Shown here piece by piece: positions 5,588-63,847 of a DNA stretch of 64,000 nucleotides. The position numbers and the translations under genes are program-made. This stretch comes from Konateibacter massiliensis (GTDB lineage: Bacteria; Bacillota; Clostridia; Lachnospirales; Lachnospiraceae): positions 1 to 64,000 of the forward strand of contig NZ_LT860097.1 of assembly GCF_900184995.1 (NCBI RefSeq), read 5' to 3'. Position 1 is the stretch's first letter. Each line of letters starts with the position of its first letter. The notes under the pieces were generated by a model, which saw only the letters and a program-made list of their open reading frames with translations, ran no database searches and had not been told where the DNA came from.

Positions 5588-5719
5588 AAAATTGCCTCCT
5601 TATAATAGCATACATTTTATAAAATCCCTTTTGATTTTAGCAGATTTATAGAATATGGCAATAGCTGGCACAATAAATTAAGTAAAATGTAATCTTTTAT
5701 TAATGAAAAGAACTATGAT

Positions 5720-5934
5720 ATAATGTCGATAGACATTATATCATCCCGAATGGGGATCCAATTATGAGTTACGGAGTAATTCATATAATGTCGGTAGACA
5801 TTATATCATCCCGAATGGGGATCCAATTATGAGTTACGGAGTAATTCATATAATGTCGGTAGACATTATATCATCCCGGATGGGGATACAATTATGAGTT
5901 ACGAAGTAATTCATATAATGTCGGTAGACATTAT
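5720..5934 (+). repeat. 65-bp tandem palindromic repeats (family 2), 3.3 units
   Basis: Units begin at 5720, 5785 and 5850, with a partial fourth at 5915-5934, an exact 65-bp period. Each unit has three palindromes in order: ATAATGTC-4nt-GACATTAT, ATCCC-GAAT-GGGGAT, and ATGAGTTA...TAATTCAT. A TATAAT box sits in the left arm of each first palindrome. The array ends 24 nt before the MATE gene start. A single diverged unit lies at 15455-15518 before the FAD dehydrogenase gene. The role may be an operator array, a phase-length promoter or a mobile palindromic repeat. Confidence 0.85.
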
Positions 5935-5958
5935 AGTGTCATATTACGGGAGGCAAAA

Positions 5959-13027: not shown

Positions 13028-13057
13028 GAGCAAGGCACATAGATGTCTTGCTTTTTT
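13028..13057 (+). terminator. rho-independent terminator after HAD nucleotidase
   Basis: AGCAAG pairs with CTTGCT around a 12-nt loop, followed directly by six T. Its end touches the family 3 repeat. Confidence 0.8.
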
Positions 13058-13196
13058 ATATAATAGAAAATTCTTACGAATTTCCTATTATATAAAACGA
13101 TTATGCGAACCTCGCGGAGTAGAAGTTGTTGCTTTGCAACCCGCTCGGGCGCGAAGTGTGAGCAACGCTCACACTTTTTTATAATAGAAAATTGCC
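13058..13196 (+). repeat. structured dispersed repeat, family 3, copy A
   Basis: Three hairpins in order: ATAATAGAAAATTC...GAATTTCCTATTAT, GTTGCTTTGCAAC, and GTGTGAGC-AAC-GCTCACAC. Between them lie the conserved strings TTATGCG, CCTCGCGGAG and CCGCTCGGGCGCGAAG. Near-identical copies occur at 13978, 26335 and 48301. A short duplicate of the first arm (ATAATAGAAAATT) follows the last hairpin. No coding content. Confidence 0.8.
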
Positions 13197-13311: not shown

Positions 13312-13977
13312 ATGAGTAAAATAACGTATGAGCAGATAAGAGAAAATAAAGAGATTAATACTTATATTCAGGTCGGAAATGAGGTTCTTGGTGTGCTGGG
13401 CTATACGGACCATTCTAAGATTCACGCGATAAAGGTAGCCGAGACGGCGGGAAAAATATTAAGAGAGCTTGGTTATTCCAAAAAGGAAATTGAGCTGGCA
13501 AAAATAGCGGGCTTCATGCATGATATCGGAAATTCGGTTAATCGAAATGACCACGCCCACAATGGAGCTTTGATGGCATTTCAGATTTTGAAGGAGCTTG
13601 GAATGGACTGCGAGGACATTGCAGCAGTTGTAACGGCAATCGGAAATCACGATGAAAAGACAGGAACAGCGGTGACACCGATATCTGCGGCAGTCATTTT
13701 GGCAGATAAGACAGATGTAAGAAGAAATCGTGTGAGAAATAAGGAAAAAGCCAACTTTGACAATCACGACAGGGTGAATTACGCTGCCATCAAGTCGAAG
13801 GTGATGATTGATAAAGAAAAAGGAGTAATCCATCTGGATATAAAATTAGATGAATCGATCTCCTCTATCTTGGATTATTTTGAAATTTTCCTAAACCGCA
13901 TGTTGATGTGTAAGCGGGCGGCGGAAATATTAAATGCAAAGTTTAAATTTACGGCAAATGGCAACAAGGTTGCCTGA
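13312..13977 (+). CDS. HD-domain phosphohydrolase
   Basis: The 221-residue protein has an HD domain with the metal-binding set H...HD...H (His in DHSKIHAIKVAE, the pair in MHDIGN, and HAHNG, then GNHDE). HD proteins hydrolyse phosphate esters of nucleotides or (p)ppGpp-like molecules; the substrate is unknown. The start is ATG 13312 because AGGAG lies 7 nt upstream; an in-frame TTG 6 nt earlier is too close to it. The gene is flanked on both sides by family 3 repeats and converges on the uridine kinase gene. Confidence 0.85.
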   Translation: MSKITYEQIRENKEINTYIQVGNEVLGVLGYTDHSKIHAIKVAETAGKILRELGYSKKEIELAKIAGFMHDIGNSVNRNDHAHNGALMAFQILKELGMDCEDIAAVVTAIGNHDEKTGTAVTPISAAVILADKTDVRRNRVRNKEKANFDNHDRVNYAAIKSKVMIDKEKGVIHLDIKLDESISSILDYFEIFLNRMLMCKRAAEILNAKFKFTANGNKVA

Positions 13978-14095
13978 TTTAATATCATAGGAATTTCCTA
14001 TGATATTAAAACTATTAATGCGCATCTCACCGAATGGAAGTTGTTGCTATGCAATCTGCTCGGGCGCGGAGAATGTGCTTTGCACATTCGTTGTT
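13978..14095 (+). repeat. structured dispersed repeat, family 3, copy B
   Basis: The first palindrome is AATATCATAGGAATTTCCTATGATATT. It is followed by ATTAATGCGCATCTCACCGAAT, the GTTGCTATGCAAT hairpin, CTGCTCGGGCGCGGAG, and the last hairpin GAATGTGC-TTT-GCACATTC. The last stem differs from copy A (GTGTGAGC/GCTCACAC) on both strands, so pairing is kept. It fills the space between two convergent genes and probably serves as their terminator region. Confidence 0.8.
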
Positions 14096-14100
14096 CCAAA

Positions 14101-15433: not shown

Positions 15434-15518
15434 TAGACACATTTCGACGTTTATGCTATAATTGTCGTTGGACAATTATAGCATCCCAGATGGGGATCCA
15501 CGAATTACGAAGTAATTC
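15434..15518 (+). promoter_or_regulatory. promoter with embedded family 2 palindrome unit
   Basis: TAGACA at 15434-15439, a 17-nt spacer and TATAAT at 15457-15462 form a good promoter. The TATAAT lies inside the left arm of a perfect 12-bp palindrome GCTATAATTGTC-GTTG-GACAATTATAGC (15455-15482). ATCCC-AGAT-GGGGAT and GAATTAC-GAA-GTAATTC follow. Order and spacing match one unit of the 65-bp array at 5720. A palindrome over a -10 box looks like a repressor operator; the downstream hairpins would be in the 5' leader. Confidence 0.7.
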
Positions 15519-18491: not shown

Positions 18492-18521
18492 GGAAGCCGT
18501 CGTAATGGGGGCTTCTTTTTT
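18492..18521 (+). terminator. rho-independent terminator after response regulator
   Basis: GGAAGCC pairs with GGCTTC around an 11-nt loop and runs straight into six T. Confidence 0.8.
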
Positions 18522-25045: not shown

Positions 25046-25230
25046 TAACAGTTCAGCCATGCCATTCATAATGTGCCCGAATATACAAATATTCCAAGTA
25101 TTTTACTTCATGATTGGCACATTATTCATGTAGGGCGTCCGCCCTATAGAAATAATTCTATAAAATGTCCTTAGAGTGTGAACACTCACGGTCATTTTAT
25201 AGAATCATTTCTGCATGGCTGAACTGTTAC
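25045..25230 (+). mobile_element. MITE-like element, family 4, copy X (best copy)
   Basis: A 186-bp element with perfect 18-bp terminal inverted repeats: GTAACAGTTCAGCCATGC on the left and its exact reverse complement on the right. Inside, CATTCATAATGTGCC pairs with GGCACATTATTCATG, GGGCG pairs with CGCCC, and ATTCTATAAAATG pairs with CATTTTATAGAAT around a GAGTGT/CACTC hairpin, so nearly the whole element folds. No protein is encoded and no target duplication is obvious. Copies Y (46943) and Z (11142, inverted) align along their full length. Confidence 0.8.
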
Positions 25231-26334: not shown

Positions 26335-26430
26335 TTTATAACATAGAAAAATCCTTTGAATTTCCTATGATATAAAAATATTATGCGCACCTTGCTTGGG
26401 CGTGAAGTGTGAGCTTTGCTCACACTCTGT
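26335..26430 (+). repeat. structured dispersed repeat, family 3, copy C
   Basis: This copy has the first palindrome (AACATAG...CTATGAT, imperfect), ATATTATGCGCACC and the final GTGTGAGC-TTT-GCTCACAC hairpin. It lacks the central GTTGC/GCAAC hairpin found in copies A, B and D: CACCTTGC runs directly into TTGGGCGTGAAG. Confidence 0.75.
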
Positions 26431-45081: not shown

Positions 45082-45117
45082 TTCGGGCACGAAGAATGTG
45101 CAAAGCACATTCTTTAT
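45082..45117 (+). repeat. fragment of family 3 repeat (3' hairpin only)
   Basis: TTCGGGCACGAA followed by GAATGTGC-AAA-GCACATTC and T-rich sequence equals the 3' part of family 3 elements (compare copy B at 14069). The upstream parts are missing. Confidence 0.6.
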
Positions 45118-45144
45118 TTAAAATAAGATTAAGCAAATAAAGGA

Positions 45145-46942: not shown

Positions 46943-47125
46943 TACTATTCAGCCATGCCATTCATAATGTGCCAAATATACCGTTATTCCAAGTATTTTA
47001 TGAGATGATTGGCACATTATTCATGTCGGGCGTCCGCCCTATAGAAATAATTATATAAAATGTCCTTAGCGTGCAAGCACTCACGGTCATTTTATATAAT
47101 TATTTCTGCATGGCTGAACTGTTTA
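46943..47125 (+). mobile_element. MITE-like element, family 4, copy Y
   Basis: The ends are CTATTCAGCCATGC and GCATGGCTGAACTGTTTAC. The interior follows copy X closely: CATTCATAATGTGCC pairs with GGCACATTATTCATG, GGGCGTCCGCCC, and ATTATATAAAATG pairs with CATTTTATATAAT. X has ATTCTATAAAATG/CATTTTATAGAAT at that place, a change on both sides that keeps the pair. It starts 26 nt after the recJ stop and ends just before the T-box promoter. Confidence 0.75.
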
Positions 47126-47488: not shown

Positions 47489-47560
47489 GTATAAACAGAA
47501 AAAATAAACCTCCGGCTATGCCGGTGGTCCCACGGTTTTGCTTTAGATTCAAGCAAAAAA

Positions 47561-47615
47561 CCTCCTATGTTATAATAATTGCGGGTTTAGCCAACCACAA
47601 AAAAGACATAGGAGG
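47561..47615 (+). promoter_or_regulatory. RBS-sequestering hairpin and promoter of tnpA
   Basis: CCTCCTATGT (47561-47570) is the exact complement of ACATAGGAGG (47606-47615), which contains the tnpA ribosome site. A TATAAT (47571-47576) begins right after the first arm. RNA started from this -10 box would lack the first arm and expose the ribosome site; RNA reading in from upstream would contain both arms and hide it. This mirrors the known protection of IS200 from impinging transcription. Confidence 0.7.
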
Positions 47616-47623
47616 TATCCAAA

Positions 47624-48097
47624 ATGGATATGAATAGTTTAGCCCATACTAAATGGGAATGCAAGTATCATTTGGTATTTGCACCAAAATACAGAAGACA
47701 GATAGTATATGGAAAAATTAAAGCAGATATTGCTCAAATATTAAGTACATTATGTAAGCGTAAAGGAATAGAGATAATGGAAGCAGAATGTTGTGTGGAT
47801 CATATTCACATGTTAGTTAGAATACCACCCAAATATAGTGTGTCTGAAATAATGGGATATCTAAAAGGAAAAAGTTCACTGATGATATTTGAAAGACATG
47901 CTAATCTAAAATATAAGTATGGAAATCGCCATTTTTGGTGTAGAGGATATTATGTAGATACGGTAGGAAAAAATACAAAGAAGATACAAGAATATATTGC
48001 AAATCAATTGAAAGAAGATCATGAATCGGATCAAATGACATTGAATGAATATATAGACCCGTTCACGGGTGAGCCAGTACAAAAAAGCAAGAAGTAG
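47624..48097 (+). CDS. tnpA: IS200/IS605 family transposase TnpA (Y1 HUH)
   Basis: The 157-residue protein is a full-length Y1 transposase. The HUH motif is H60-I-H62 in CVDHIHMLV, and the probable catalytic tyrosine is Tyr124 in KKIQEYIANQ. It cuts and joins single-stranded DNA at the hairpin ends, usually during replication. AGGAGG lies 8 nt before the ATG. Reading frame and length are intact, so the element may be active. Codon use looks more A-rich than that of the neighbouring gat genes. Confidence 0.95.
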   Translation: MDMNSLAHTKWECKYHLVFAPKYRRQIVYGKIKADIAQILSTLCKRKGIEIMEAECCVDHIHMLVRIPPKYSVSEIMGYLKGKSSLMIFERHANLKYKYGNRHFWCRGYYVDTVGKNTKKIQEYIANQLKEDHESDQMTLNEYIDPFTGEPVQKSKK

Positions 48098-48272
48098 TCC
48101 CTGAAAGGGAAGCTAGGGAATAAAGCTATAATGAAAGGCTCAAGGAGCTTGCAGGAGTAAGGAGGCAATAAAAAAGGCCCTTTAGGGCTGCCTGAGAAGG
48201 AAGTGCGGTTGGCAAAACCATCAGGCGCCTCCGGGCGCAAGCAGGGAATAGACCCTTACAGGGTCAGAGCAA
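48098..48272 (+). ncRNA. structured non-coding 3' region of the IS200-type element
   Basis: The ~175 nt between the tnpA stop and the right-end hairpin hold several small hairpins: CCCTGAAAGGG, GGCCCTTTAGGGCT, GGCGCCTCCGGGCGC and GACCCTTACAGGGTC. No reading frame is seen. It could be a remnant of an omega-RNA scaffold from a lost tnpB, an antisense-type regulator, or only DNA hairpins used in transposition. Transcription is not shown. Confidence 0.4.
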
Positions 48273-48300
48273 GCCACCGGCTAAGCCGGTGGTCTTGACT

Positions 48301-50237: not shown

Positions 50238-51668
50238 ATGAGCAAACAATATGAAACAGTCATTGGACTTGAAGTGCATGTTGAATTGGCAACAAAGACA
50301 AAAATATTTTGTTCCTGCAGCACCCAGTTTGGCGGGGCGCCGAATACACATACCTGCCCGGTATGTACAGGTATGCCGGGTTCCCTTCCGGTGTTGAATA
50401 AGCAGGTGGTAGAATATGCGGCAGCGGTTGGACTTGCAACCGGCTGTACCATTACACAAAACTGTAAATTTGACAGAAAGAATTATTTTTATCCGGACAA
50501 TCCGCAGAACTATCAGATTTCCCAGCTCTATTATCCGATTTGCCGGGACGGCGGAATTGAGATTGAGACAGAGAACGGAAAAAAGACAATTCGTCTTCAT
50601 GAGATTCATATGGAGGAGGATGCAGGAAAGCTGATTCACGATGAGTGGGACGACTGCTCCTTAGTAGATTTTAACCGAAGCGGCGTACCTTTGATTGAAA
50701 TTGTATCAGAGCCGGATATGCGAAGTGCAGAAGAGGTAATCGCTTATTTGGATAAGCTGAGACTTATTATCCAGTATTTGGGTGCTTCTGATTGTAAGCT
50801 TCAGGAGGGCTCCATGAGAGCTGATGTAAACCTTTCTCTTCGCGAGGTAGGAGCGAAGGAATTTGGAACGAGAACGGAAATGAAAAACTTAAACTCCTTC
50901 AAGGCAATTGCAAGAGCAATCGAGGGAGAGCGGGAACGTCAGATAGAATTGCTCGAAGAGGGCAAGGAAGTTGTTCAGGAGACAAGACGCTGGGACGATA
51001 CGAAGGAATGCTCCTATGCAATGCGTTCCAAAGAAGATGCACAGGATTACCGCTATTTCCCGGAGCCGGATTTGGTTCCGATTATCATCAGCGACGAGTG
51101 GCTGAGAGAAATCAGAGACAAGCAGCCGGAGCTTCGCGATGAGAAGAAAGCGAGATACAAAAAGGAATTTGATATTCCGGAATATGACATTGATATCATA
51201 ACAGCTTCCAAGAGAATGGCAGATATTTTCGAGGAGACGATAGCAATCTGTAACAAGCCGAAGAAGGTATCCAACTGGCTGATGGTTGAGACCATGAGAT
51301 TGTTAAAAGAGCATGACATGGAACCGCAGGACATTACATTTTCTCCGAAAAATCTGGCAAAGCTAATTGATTTAGCGGATGACGGAACGATTAACAGCAG
51401 CGTTGCCAAGGAAGTATTTGAAGTGATGTTCAAGGAGGATATCAATCCTGAGCAGTATGTGGAAGAAAAGGGCTTGAAATCCGTCAATGACGAAGGTGCT
51501 CTTCGCAGCACAATCGAGGGTGTTATCGCAGCAAATCCGCAGTCCGTTGAGGATTACAGAAGCGGTAAGGAAAAAGCAATTGGCTTCTTGGTTGGACAGA
51601 CGATGAAGGCAATGCAGGGAAAAGCAGATCCGGGCATGATTAATAAAATATTGAAGGAATTGTTGTAA
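50238..51668 (+). CDS. gatB: Asp-tRNA(Asn)/Glu-tRNA(Gln) amidotransferase subunit GatB
   Basis: The 476-residue protein binds the misacylated tRNA and activates Asp or Glu on it with ATP. Markers are VIGLEVHVEL at the N terminus, a zinc-binding cysteine set (CSCSTQFG...CPVC), DFNRSGVPLIEIVSEPD and the C-terminal YqeY-like tail (GKEKAIGFLVGQTMKAMQGK). The start is ATG 50238, 1 nt after the gatA stop, with AAGGGG upstream; the longer frame would overlap gatA by 100 nt. The family 1 hairpin downstream serves as terminator. Confidence 0.96.
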   Translation: MSKQYETVIGLEVHVELATKTKIFCSCSTQFGGAPNTHTCPVCTGMPGSLPVLNKQVVEYAAAVGLATGCTITQNCKFDRKNYFYPDNPQNYQISQLYYPICRDGGIEIETENGKKTIRLHEIHMEEDAGKLIHDEWDDCSLVDFNRSGVPLIEIVSEPDMRSAEEVIAYLDKLRLIIQYLGASDCKLQEGSMRADVNLSLREVGAKEFGTRTEMKNLNSFKAIARAIEGERERQIELLEEGKEVVQETRRWDDTKECSYAMRSKEDAQDYRYFPEPDLVPIIISDEWLREIRDKQPELRDEKKARYKKEFDIPEYDIDIITASKRMADIFEETIAICNKPKKVSNWLMVETMRLLKEHDMEPQDITFSPKNLAKLIDLADDGTINSSVAKEVFEVMFKEDINPEQYVEEKGLKSVNDEGALRSTIEGVIAANPQSVEDYRSGKEKAIGFLVGQTMKAMQGKADPGMINKILKELL

Positions 51669-51706
51669 CAATCGAGTTTGTTTGAATAAGTATAAAAATT
51701 ATATAA

Positions 51707-51811
51707 GCGCACGAATGCAAGTGGAAGATGTTACTACGTGACTGCATTCGGCGCGATAAAGCAGCCAAGTCCCTCATGAGTGAGGGACTTGGCTGCTTTG
51801 TTCTTCGTGCA
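51707..51811 (+). repeat. structured dispersed repeat, family 1, copy 2 / gatB terminator
   Basis: The outer arms GCACGAA and TTCGTGC enclose GAATGCA/TGCATTC with a GTTAC-TAC-GTGAC hairpin, then a perfect 18-bp hairpin AAGCAGCCAAGTCCCTCA-TGAG with its complement, followed by a T-rich tail. The first ~75 nt match 571-645. The long hairpin is a strong terminator candidate for gatCAB. The conserved upstream half is not needed for termination, which argues for another function. Confidence 0.8.
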
Positions 51812-62286: not shown

Positions 62287-62886
62287 ATGTTAGATAAGGC
62301 AGTACCATATAAGCGTATTATTATGAAGCTGGATTATGAGAAAAATCATAGCACGGCAAATATAATACTGCCCGAAGGATATTCCTTTCAAATGTATGAG
62401 GAAGGAATGGAGGAGGAATGGGCAGAGACAGAGGCAGAGGTTTTGGAATTTGACACGAAGGAAAAGGCTCTTGCTTATTTTAAGAAAAATCTGCTTCCGT
62501 ATAAGGAAAATCTGAAAAAAAGAATGATTTTTGTGGTGAATAAAGAGGGGACAGCTGTTGCCAATGCCTGTGCCTGGTATGCTGATTACAAGGGAAAGCA
62601 TCAGGCACATGTCCACTATGTTGCGGTGAGACCGGACTATCAGGGGTTAGGCATTGGAAAGGCAGTATTTCAAAAGATACTGACTCTTTTTCCGGTTTAT
62701 GAACCAAATGAGGACATTTATCTCCATACCCAGACATGGAGCCATGTTGCAATTCGCATGTATCTTACAATGGGGTTTCGGTTGATAAAGGATGAGTTTA
62801 TCGGCTATCATCAAAAGGATTATGAGGAAGCTGTGCGCACTCTGGAGAAGATTTATGATAGAGAGACGATAAAAAAGACATCTTGA
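62287..62886 (+). CDS. GNAT family N-acetyltransferase
   Basis: The ~199-residue protein has a C-terminal GNAT domain (VHYVAVRPDYQGLGIGKAVF, about residues 111-130; YLTMGFRLIKDEF at the end). The N-terminal half has no family marks. The acceptor is unknown. The start is taken as ATG 62287, after GTGAGGTG; the longer frame begins inside the EutP gene. The stop codon is inside the terminator hairpin. Confidence 0.8.
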   Translation: MLDKAVPYKRIIMKLDYEKNHSTANIILPEGYSFQMYEEGMEEEWAETEAEVLEFDTKEKALAYFKKNLLPYKENLKKRMIFVVNKEGTAVANACAWYADYKGKHQAHVHYVAVRPDYQGLGIGKAVFQKILTLFPVYEPNEDIYLHTQTWSHVAIRMYLTMGFRLIKDEFIGYHQKDYEEAVRTLEKIYDRETIKKTS

Positions 62887-62909
62887 ATAAAATTTCAAGA
62901 TGTCTTTTT
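62872..62909. terminator. bidirectional terminator between GNAT gene and lgt
   Basis: AAAAAGACATCTTGAA pairs with TTCAAGATGTCTTTTT around a 6-nt loop. The left arm contains the GNAT stop codon; A and T runs on both sides serve both directions. Confidence 0.88.
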
Positions 62910-62923
62910 ATATGATAGGAAAA

Positions 62924-63694
62924 TCATTCTTCGATATCGGATTTATCCTCTCTTTTATTCAATACATAGCCCATAACAAGGCCGGCAAGTACGATAAAGA
63001 TAGAGATAAACTGTGAGGTGGAAAGCGCTCCGATGCTTCCGCGTACCAAATCACCTCTAAAGAACTCAATGATAAAGCGTCCGATGCCGTATAAAACTAA
63101 ATAGGCGCTTGCGACAAGCCCTGATTTTGAATTCTTTCTTGCAAACAGGATGAGAACAAGAGCGATAGCAAAATCACCAAGGCTGGACATTAGCTGTGTT
63201 GGCACTAAGTGAATGTGGTTTGGCGCGTACTCAGAGTTTTGAAATACAATGCTAAAGCCCGAAGTCGTTTCCAAGCCATAGCAGCAGCCTGCAAAAAAGC
63301 AGCCGACACGCCCAAAGCCTTGTGCGATAGCCAAGGAAGGCACAAGTAAATCAAAATATGTTAAAAAGTTCTTTTTCTTATATCGGCAGTAGAGATAAGC
63401 AGCTAAAATTCCGCCGATAATACCGCCGTACACAACAAAGCCGTCCATCAGCTCCAACAAACTGGCTGGATTCTCGAGAATAGTTTTCCATTTCGTAATG
63501 AAATACAAAAGCTTAGCTCCCAACAGTCCGAAAATAATGCAGACAAAGGCGAGATTAAAGAGAAAATCTCGGTCAAGGCCTCTTTTTTTTGCACGGTAAT
63601 CAGCAGAAAGAAGTGCTGCAATAAAGCCAATTCCGATTAATAAACCATAGCTATGTACGGTAATGGGACCAATACTGAATAAATCGTTATACAT
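62924..63694 (-). CDS. lgt: prolipoprotein diacylglyceryl transferase
   Basis: The 256-residue membrane enzyme transfers diacylglycerol from phosphatidylglycerol to the lipobox cysteine of prelipoproteins. About seven membrane helices are visible, with HSYGLLIGIGF near the N terminus and the signature region GRVGCFFAGCCYG. That signature replaces the usual GRxGNFxNxE core; Clostridial Lgt proteins often have this GCCYG form. It would process the lipoproteins at 34245, 35699 and 40792. GGAT precedes the start; the gene is in its own unit next to tRNA-Gly. Confidence 0.92.
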   Translation of the reverse strand: MYNDLFSIGPITVHSYGLLIGIGFIAALLSADYRAKKRGLDRDFLFNLAFVCIIFGLLGAKLLYFITKWKTILENPASLLELMDGFVVYGGIIGGILAAYLYCRYKKKNFLTYFDLLVPSLAIAQGFGRVGCFFAGCCYGLETTSGFSIVFQNSEYAPNHIHLVPTQLMSSLGDFAIALVLILFARKNSKSGLVASAYLVLYGIGRFIIEFFRGDLVRGSIGALSTSQFISIFIVLAGLVMGYVLNKREDKSDIEE

Positions 63695-63765
63695 AGAGGT
63701 ATCCTTTCTGGTGTGAAATTTTGTAAAATGAGAGTCGGTATGAAGTTATACCAGCTATAAATAGT

Positions 63766-63809
63766 TTTTATAACATAGGAAACTCGTAGTAATTTCCTAT
63801 GTTATAAAA
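63766..63809. repeat. fragment of family 3 repeat (5' palindrome only)
   Basis: TTTTATAACATAGGAAA and its near-complement ATTTCCTATGTTATAAAA form a 15-bp stem around CTCGTAGTA. Family 3 copies start with the same palindrome, with ACATAG/CTATGT here instead of TCATAG/CTATGA. It lies between tRNA-Gly and lgt. Confidence 0.6.
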
Positions 63810-63847
63810 CAAATAAGACTCTATGATAATCATAAAGTCTTAAGAAG

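Follow-up and report, generated by a model that had tools for sequence, protein, structure and literature searches.

BOX in pneumococcus, RUP, and bcr in Bacillus cereus are modular, structured, intergenic and mobile repeats of Gram-positive bacteria, and group IIC introns are known to insert just downstream of intrinsic terminators. For REP/BIME sequences it has been proposed that they reinforce termination, insulate genes or bind a DNA protein. REP, REPIN and BIME are short non-coding palindromes thought to be moved as folded single-stranded DNA by Y1 (HUH) enzymes, as described in part in PMC3733652. This paper reports GTAG repeats for Proteobacteria, Cyanobacteria, Chloroflexi and the PVC group, and its main text contains neither Firmicutes nor Clostridi as a word. 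The repeat analysed here, present in several copies in a 64-kb stretch of DNA (the window, always meant at its full length), is likewise dispersed, non-coding and palindromic, with many copies per genome, outside genes; in these respects it agrees with REP/BIME-type repeats, but not in those that define membership of REP/REPIN. Most likely it is a non-autonomous, multi-hairpin mobile DNA element (REP/MITE-like) that targets terminators, the pairing of its stems being kept as DNA in source copies.

Anatomy of the element and its copies in the window

On the + strand, the copies at 13052, 13976, 26332 and 48296 have a common order, H1, linker, P2 enclosing P3, joint and P4, over a length of ~135 bp. 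H1 is a palindrome of ~40 nt with the core ATAGGAAATT..AATTTCCTAT and T/A-rich outer arms, followed on its 3' side by the linker AAAAACTATTTATGCGCAC or a variant of it. The P2 stem bears a purine-rich bulge on its 5' side (AGTGGAAG) and encloses the inner hairpin P3 (GTTGC/GCAAC), while a nearly fixed joint, CTCGGGCGCGAAG, connects this body with P4, a terminator-like hairpin with a T-rich tail. Such a tail stands 3' of P4 in 70 of the 89 copies collected from the same genome. When folded, each of the four window copies beats all 200 shuffles (z between -5.05 and -5.99), and in the alignment across genera the purine bulge GGAAG and the linkers are conserved. The features of the window are given below; the covariance model R1 was built on 27 copies that include copies A to D, so that the bit scores of these four are a match by construction.

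13030-13057, + strand: intrinsic terminator (GCAAGGCACATAGATGTCTTGC followed by TTTTTT; read by eye) belonging to a HAD-hydrolase gene upstream (Pfam), its T-tract forming the left flank of the element; not among the matches of a simple terminator scan
13052-13182, + strand: copy A, complete, with H1, body A and P4a; 142.8 bits with model R1
13054-13097, + strand: H1 palindrome of copy A, ATATAATAGAAAATTC/GAATTTCCTATTATAT, with outer T/A arms
13105-13153, + strand: body of copy A, with P2 (GCG..CGC, GCGG/CCGC), purine bulge AGTAGAAG and inner P3 (GTTGC/GCAAC)
13154-13182, + strand: P4a of copy A, terminator-like hairpin AAGTGTGAGC/GCTCACACTT with T-rich tail
13976-14097, + strand: copy B, with short H1, body A and P4b (GAATGTGC/GCACATTC), between convergent HD-domain and uridine-kinase-family genes (Pfam); 110.6 bits
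26332-26433, + strand: copy C, with H1 and P4a, the body lacking most of P2/P3; 85.0 bits
48296-48428, + strand: copy D, 30 nt upstream of gatC; 135.5 bits
47428-47488, + strand: T-box antiterminator motif (GTGGTACCGCGG) and terminator GTCCCAGAATACGAAGTATTCTGGGAC-TTTTTT, upstream of gatC; the Rfam match of this T-box is sub-threshold (63.9 bits, gathering 93)
47489-48299, + strand: IS200-type element (Y1 transposase) of 811 bp, in the T-tract between the T-box terminator and the H1 of copy D
45082-45118, + strand: fragment with the 3' end of the body and P4b (GAATGTGC/GCACATTC), upstream of a recJ-type gene
63764-63811, no strand assigned: solitary H1 palindrome (ATAACATAGGAAACTC..AATTTCCTATGTTAT)
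522-640, + strand: subfamily B copy with P2 AATGCA/TGCATT and truncated H1, behind the terminator downstream of tRNA-Trp; 28.3 bits
51659-51804, + strand: subfamily B copy with GAATGCA/TGCATTC and a long P4 (AAAGCAGCCAAGTCCCTC..GAGGGACTTGGCTGCTTT); 41.8 bits
18515-18546, + strand: remnant consisting of a terminator T-tract, a collapsed H1 and the linker CTATTTATGCG (by eye)
62876-62926, + strand: terminator T-tract followed by half an H1 (TTTTTATATGATAGGAAAATC), at the end of a convergent lgt-type gene (by eye)

Copy D thus stands behind a T-box-type terminator from which it is now separated by the IS200 element.

A sequence-only reading of the window had listed four copies and fragments at 45082 and 63766; all were recovered, including the lack of the middle hairpin in the copy at 26335. 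Its variants of the first stem were found as TAATAG/CTATTA (13058), TCATAG/CTATGA (13978 and 48301) and ACATAG/CTATGT (63766), but the copy at 26335 has ACATAG/CTATGA, an imperfect pair. Both types that it gave for the last stem, GTGTGAGC/GCTCACAC and GAATGTGC/GCACATTC, are present, but look more like exchangeable modules than position-by-position compensation, and the linkers it considered fixed are nearly, but not wholly, so, with the variants CTCGGGCGCGAAG, CTCGGGCGCGGAG, CTTGGGCGTGAAG and TTCGGGCACGAAG. Absent from it were the subfamily B copies (~522-640 and 51659-51804), with other P2 and P4, the H1 remnants near 18515 and 62895, and the terminator that precedes many copies. A simple motif rule divided the 89 copies into 72 A-like and 17 B, and some of them combine a body of one type with a P4 of the other, such as L096:14087, which joins body B to the P4 of A; modules have been exchanged between copies.

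Two other repeats were seen in the window. The stretches 25077-25228 and 46972-47123 form a pair that is 89% alike, and the latter overlaps a match to Clostridiales-1 of Rfam that stays below threshold (34.6 bits; gathering score 48). Three tandem units of 65 nt (TCATCCCGAATGGGGATCC.., with palindromes ATAATGTC/GACATTAT) occupy 5718-5935, and a single stretch near 15475 is related to them.

Dispersal, genomic placement and turnover

A BLAST search with the first copy gave at least 67 matches in the window's own genome, at least 41 places being matched at E<=7.3e-24 (40 of 173 first-look candidates scored). R1, for which 150 of 3266 candidates were scored, gave at least 147 matches at E<=0.01, among them at least 102 with E<1e-12; the count takes in H1-only matches and opposite-strand matches of the same palindrome. 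The initial view of a dispersed structured family, as opposed to simple duplication, is supported.

Matches to R1 were present in 16 of 41 genomes (the own genome and 40 relatives), all of the same family, and a pattern derived from three other genera identified at least 120 loci in named genomes; among the matches listed (80 titles) were the Lachnospiraceae genera Anaerobutyricum, Anaerostipes, Eisenbergiella, Roseburia, Mediterraneibacter and Diplocloster, together with the broader titles Lachnospiraceae, Eubacterium, Clostridium and Clostridiales. A second model, R2, at E<=1e-4 matched 56 of the 120 genera that had been sampled in the family, the own genus included; across the class it matched 25 of 291 genomes, of which 5 were among the 10 of the own family and 20 among the 281 others, with weaker scores. 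The exact pattern of the H1 core was found in 34 of the 291 class genomes, single matches being at the level of the reversed control, which has them in many genomes, so that only genomes with three or more copies were used as class-wide evidence. There were 10 of these (none in the reversed control; with two or more copies, 16 against 4), eight of them outside the own family, and one, G217, holds 31 copies. In some other families (f27, f34, f37 and f82) a terminator T-tract is followed by H1, a structured body and a terminator-like hairpin, the body sequences being different; elsewhere in other families H1 is solitary or does not adjoin a terminator. The architecture is shared between genera, and with some other families, although the sequences of the stems have changed; the element family is widespread in what the listed titles indicate to be Lachnospiraceae, with relatives in other Clostridia.

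Some further occurrences were recorded. In G217, of another Clostridia family, the loci L353-L358 have a further body type behind H1 (GGGGGATGCAAGGGGG...GAGACGCATTTTTTATT), once in tandem. A plasmid search with a window copy gave no match; with a copy from another genus it gave one record, NZ_CP135163.1 (positions 308-437, L391; 88.5% identity), a complete 243-kb plasmid of Roseburia sp. 831b in which a hypothetical protein is annotated across part of the copy. A similar copy is present in 31 records that were deposited as phage; two of these, MT835472.1 and MT835478.1, are scaffolds marked UNVERIFIED that come from human fecal samples and could be DNA of bacteria. An exact 28-base pattern had no matches in a genome contig collection from which the own and very near genomes were possibly left out. 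Five H1 copies reach contig ends in G233, which had the appearance of a longer element, but the repeat is missing from the assembly and in G312 contigs break within the element, so that a longer element is not claimed.

Placement was surveyed in 857 kb (~20% of the genome), made up of the window and ~0.8 Mb in 40 stretches chosen for holding copies, with genes called by a simple script of our own (83% of the surveyed DNA coding) and copies of at least 54 bits (n=75). Overlap with called genes never exceeds 40 nt in the 75 copies, and in 60 of them H1 lies behind the 3' end of a same-strand gene. P4 points to the start of a same-strand gene in 51 copies and to the stop side of a gene on the other strand in 23, one copy having no neighbour there; the distance from P4 to the start has a median of 53 nt and is 17-33 nt in 21 of the 51. 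Fourteen copies lie between convergent genes, with P4 mostly near the stop of the opposite gene.

By rule, a hairpin with a T-tract is found directly at the H1 border in 52 of 89 own-genome copies, 37 being without one, and in 50 of 67 copies from other genomes, these 67 having been taken from 126 pattern matches because their H1 core was recognised and enough sequence was available upstream. The same rule detects 6/89 and 4/67 when the upstream part is shuffled, and 43/506 at random intergenic points. There is one orientation, with H1 toward the terminator and P4 away from it. Dispersal thus takes place outside genes, often immediately 3' of terminator T-tracts, in a single orientation. A T-box-type terminator directly precedes 5 of the 89 copies of this genome and 5 of the 114 examined from others, the gatC copy of the window being an additional case; the 857 kb contain 14 T-box antiterminator motifs on both strands, and the share is inflated because this DNA was selected around copies. 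The own-genome cases (L080, L082, L083, L096 and L100) are located in the leader of the regulated gene. A sequence resembling the left arm of H1 follows P4 in 36 of 89 copies as compared with 235 of 876 in the background, a weak excess, and tandem remnants were dropped as a general feature.

The 89 copies were compared with 1.2 Mb of a sister species (G001), ~75% identical where aligned. Both flanks are colinear in it for nine copies, and at all nine the copy is absent, by eye and by R1; matches to R1 do exist in the stretches of the sister species, none of them inside the nine intervals. Flank identity at the compared loci is about 66-90%, mostly near 75%, and given this, loss in the sister species instead of gain is possible for any single locus. 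The upstream terminator can be recognised in both species at four of the nine loci. At L107:12966 the sister species retains a short H1-like remnant (TTTTTTTATATCATATAAAA), and at three loci (L090:16505, L093:7887 and L051) the flanks simply enclose dissimilar sequence. No clear target-site duplication was observed in the nine comparisons, mostly made near 75% identity; the element has a T-tract on its left and a T-rich tail on its right. In tandem copies from other genomes, the next H1 begins in the T-tract of the preceding P4.

Covariation, mismatches and alternative explanations

The cross-genus alignment comprised 54 copies (48 of 61 filtered copies and 6 others). Pairing holds in 95.3% of its cells (97.4% in P2 and 94.8% in P3), and two-sided changes occur in 211 cells, compared with 51 in shuffles, a signal that is abolished by sliding the pairing partner. 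Covariation was evaluated with a test of our own, similar to R-scape (G-test with APC), the null being obtained by re-placing the changes on a FastTree tree. Above this tree-preserving null, 14 of 45 pairs were significant at E<0.05 (six in H1, two in P3 and six in P4, one column being common to two pairs), and the cross-genus set had been found with a pattern fixing part of P2, where covariation could hardly appear. Among all column pairs five were significant, and the five fall within the structure. Covariation above chance, which the sequence-only reading made the touchstone of its proposal, is thus present, and with six H1 pairs the paired changes it described for the first stem gain support. 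In the 72 own-genome copies 6 of 46 pairs were significant (three in H1 and three in P4), the run including two misplaced pairs, columns 68-142 and 69-141, neither of them significant; among all column pairs there were three, one structural and two not, all within P4. In these copies the linkage between P4 columns is about as strong outside the pairs as within them, and P4 changes amount to the exchange of whole modules; base-by-base compensation of P4 within the own genome was accordingly set aside.

Selection on pairing in RNA should leave G-U tolerated and A-C not. In neighbouring terminators G-U exceeds A-C (44 and 33 against 10 and 13 in two sets; 77:23 in total), whereas in the stems of the element the two are equal, at 150:146 cells (54 and 72 copies) and at 107:110 events inferred on trees (for 54 copies, and for those 62 out of 72 that have most columns); the difference with terminators has a Fisher p of 4e-6 for cells and 2.8e-6 for events. 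Because of this equality, single copies are probably not under RNA selection, and the earlier view of the paired changes as a sign of selected RNA is not supported. Direct changes from one Watson-Crick pair to another were inferred 173 times, most often in H1 (54 and 51 in the two sets), and pair changes have no strand bias. Pairing may be renewed in source copies as DNA, or the arms may correct each other, and the frequent direct changes fit both; the symmetric mismatches would fit a fossil family now without function as well.

These data bear differently on the other ways in which the repeat could be understood. It could be a structured RNA family, with copies transcribed through terminator read-through and acting as a regulatory or stabilising RNA or as the 5' leader of the next gene, and strong folding, covariation above the tree null, the conserved bulge GGAAG and linkers, the T-rich tail behind P4 in 70/89 copies and the 21 of 51 copies ending 17-33 nt before a same-strand start would all be in keeping with this. 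We nevertheless find it highly improbable, given that G-U equals A-C in all stems (107:110, against 77:23 in neighbouring terminators), that promoter-like patterns at two tested places are not above shuffled expectation, that a credible Rfam match is absent and that the sister species lacks the copy at 9/9 comparable loci. Moreover, 23 of 75 copies face an opposite-strand gene that they cannot lead, on which ground a riboswitch or leader was rejected as a general role.

Template switching in replication copies the arms of a palindrome onto each other, a process known as quasipalindrome correction, and the paired changes could have arisen without selection by such arm-to-arm copying on ordinary repeats. 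Correction alone would not maintain the order H1-P2(P3)-P4, which persists over genera and families despite stem changes, and P2 and P3 stay paired too (97.4% and 94.8% of cells), so that we regard this as unlikely to be the explanation, in spite of the excess of direct Watson-Crick changes (173) over steps into G-U (107) or A-C (110), their peak in H1, the longest palindrome, and the lack of strand bias, all of which it would account for. Retention of the copies as a domesticated chromosomal element that reinforces termination, insulates neighbours or binds a DNA protein appears more doubtful still. The location at borders of transcription units, the T-rich tail (70/89) and the 14 copies between convergent genes with P4 mostly close to the opposite stop would be expected of it, but not the turnover implied by a sister species without the copy at 9/9 comparable loci, nor the accumulation of mismatches without bias; besides, many copies follow a pre-existing terminator, and behind T-box terminators extra termination should lower expression.

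Mobiliser candidates and comparison with known systems

If the repeat is a mobile DNA element targeting terminators, a transposition machinery would recognise H1 (core ATAGGAAA..TTTCCTAT), together with the remaining hairpins, in the form of folded single-stranded DNA, and would insert the element behind a terminator T-tract. Selection for paired stems would act on source copies only and settled copies would decay neutrally, and neutral decay would make G-U and A-C mismatches equal in number. P4 and its T-rich tail would form a terminator-like end and hence a possible target for the next copy, as in the tandems observed.

No transposase belonging to the element was found, and no autonomous copy, with its 5' and 3' halves split by a gene, was seen in the 857 kb surveyed (~20% of the genome). 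The only Y1 matches in the own genome (97.9% complete) are eight IS200 copies of 161 aa, which differ by 0-2 of 811 bases; all eight stand behind a hairpin with a T-rich tail (seven by script, the eighth by eye), in the orientation of the element. Among these IS200 copies (L070-L077) is the one at 47489-48299 of the window, which lies between a T-box terminator and the gatC leader. Because the eight copies occupy the same type of site in the same orientation, an IS200-like Y1 (HUH) enzyme is the most attractive candidate for the mobiliser, although not a proven one. A Y1 match was obtained in 14 of 24 relatives and in 11 of 19 presumed carriers of other families, with no evident fit with copy number; it was absent in the remaining eight of these 19, and in G003, G004, G013 and G024 despite their 15, 7, 6 and 2 model matches. 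Reverse transcriptase matches were absent in 12 of 24 carriers, and with matches in only 12 of 24 a reverse transcriptase or group II intron was rejected as common mobiliser. Draft genomes can conceal genes, and a mobiliser can be lost after a burst. A similarity of an H1 arm to a dif half-site is likewise unsupported, a dif pattern having had no match within three mismatches in 13 genomes.

On a broader scale, and more tentatively, the elements might constitute a gene-less superfamily that homes to intrinsic terminators in several families of Clostridia, with a shared H1 (core ATAGGAAA..TTTCCTAT) marking the end beside the terminator T-tract, exchangeable structured bodies behind it and a terminator-like hairpin that re-creates the target. 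The mover would then be an unrecognised enzyme or a host function acting on single-stranded DNA hairpins, which is invoked because neither Y1 nor reverse transcriptase was found in all carriers. Terminators, usually read as ends, would here be landing sites, and an element that settles behind them, T-box attenuators included, without breaking genes can reach high copy number and can, in common Clostridia, alter many transcription units at once in their leaders and borders. There is also a warning in these results, namely that covariation and paired stem changes can arise from a mobile DNA element, and a tool, since the count of G-U versus A-C, calibrated on neighbouring terminators, helps to tell mobile DNA from an RNA family.

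With regard to named families, a search of the window against Rfam at gathering score yielded nothing on the element, and at E<=10 nothing credible at 11 loci, where miRNA-type and similar matches lay far below gathering scores; a description of the repeat was not found in the open-access literature searched. No already named repeat corresponding to the family was found in either source, and membership was tested and rejected both for a named RNA family and for REP/REPIN. REP/REPIN are 20-40 nt long, whereas the element has ~135 nt with several different hairpins and is located at intrinsic terminators. The GTAG or CGTC tag, as defined in PMC3733652, was seen by eye in the alignments at neither H1 nor P4 ends, and while REP/REPIN need RAYT, the Y1 genes of the own genome are of IS200 type only; RAYT/REPIN membership was rejected on these two grounds. 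According to the same source, in what it states of their stems, G-T pairs are often present in REP, in contrast with the symmetric mismatches of the element. The IS200/IS605 family has hairpins near both ends, a T-rich left target and one orientation with respect to it, like the element, and the IS200 of the own genome uses the same kind of terminator T-tract, but its end hairpins have no likeness to H1 or P4 (by eye) and the element is devoid of a transposase gene. The insertion site is like that of group IIC introns, from which the element differs by its ~135 nt and the lack of an Rfam intron match. From BOX, RUP and bcr, compared by their description, it is set apart by the targeting of terminators and the order H1-P2(P3)-P4.
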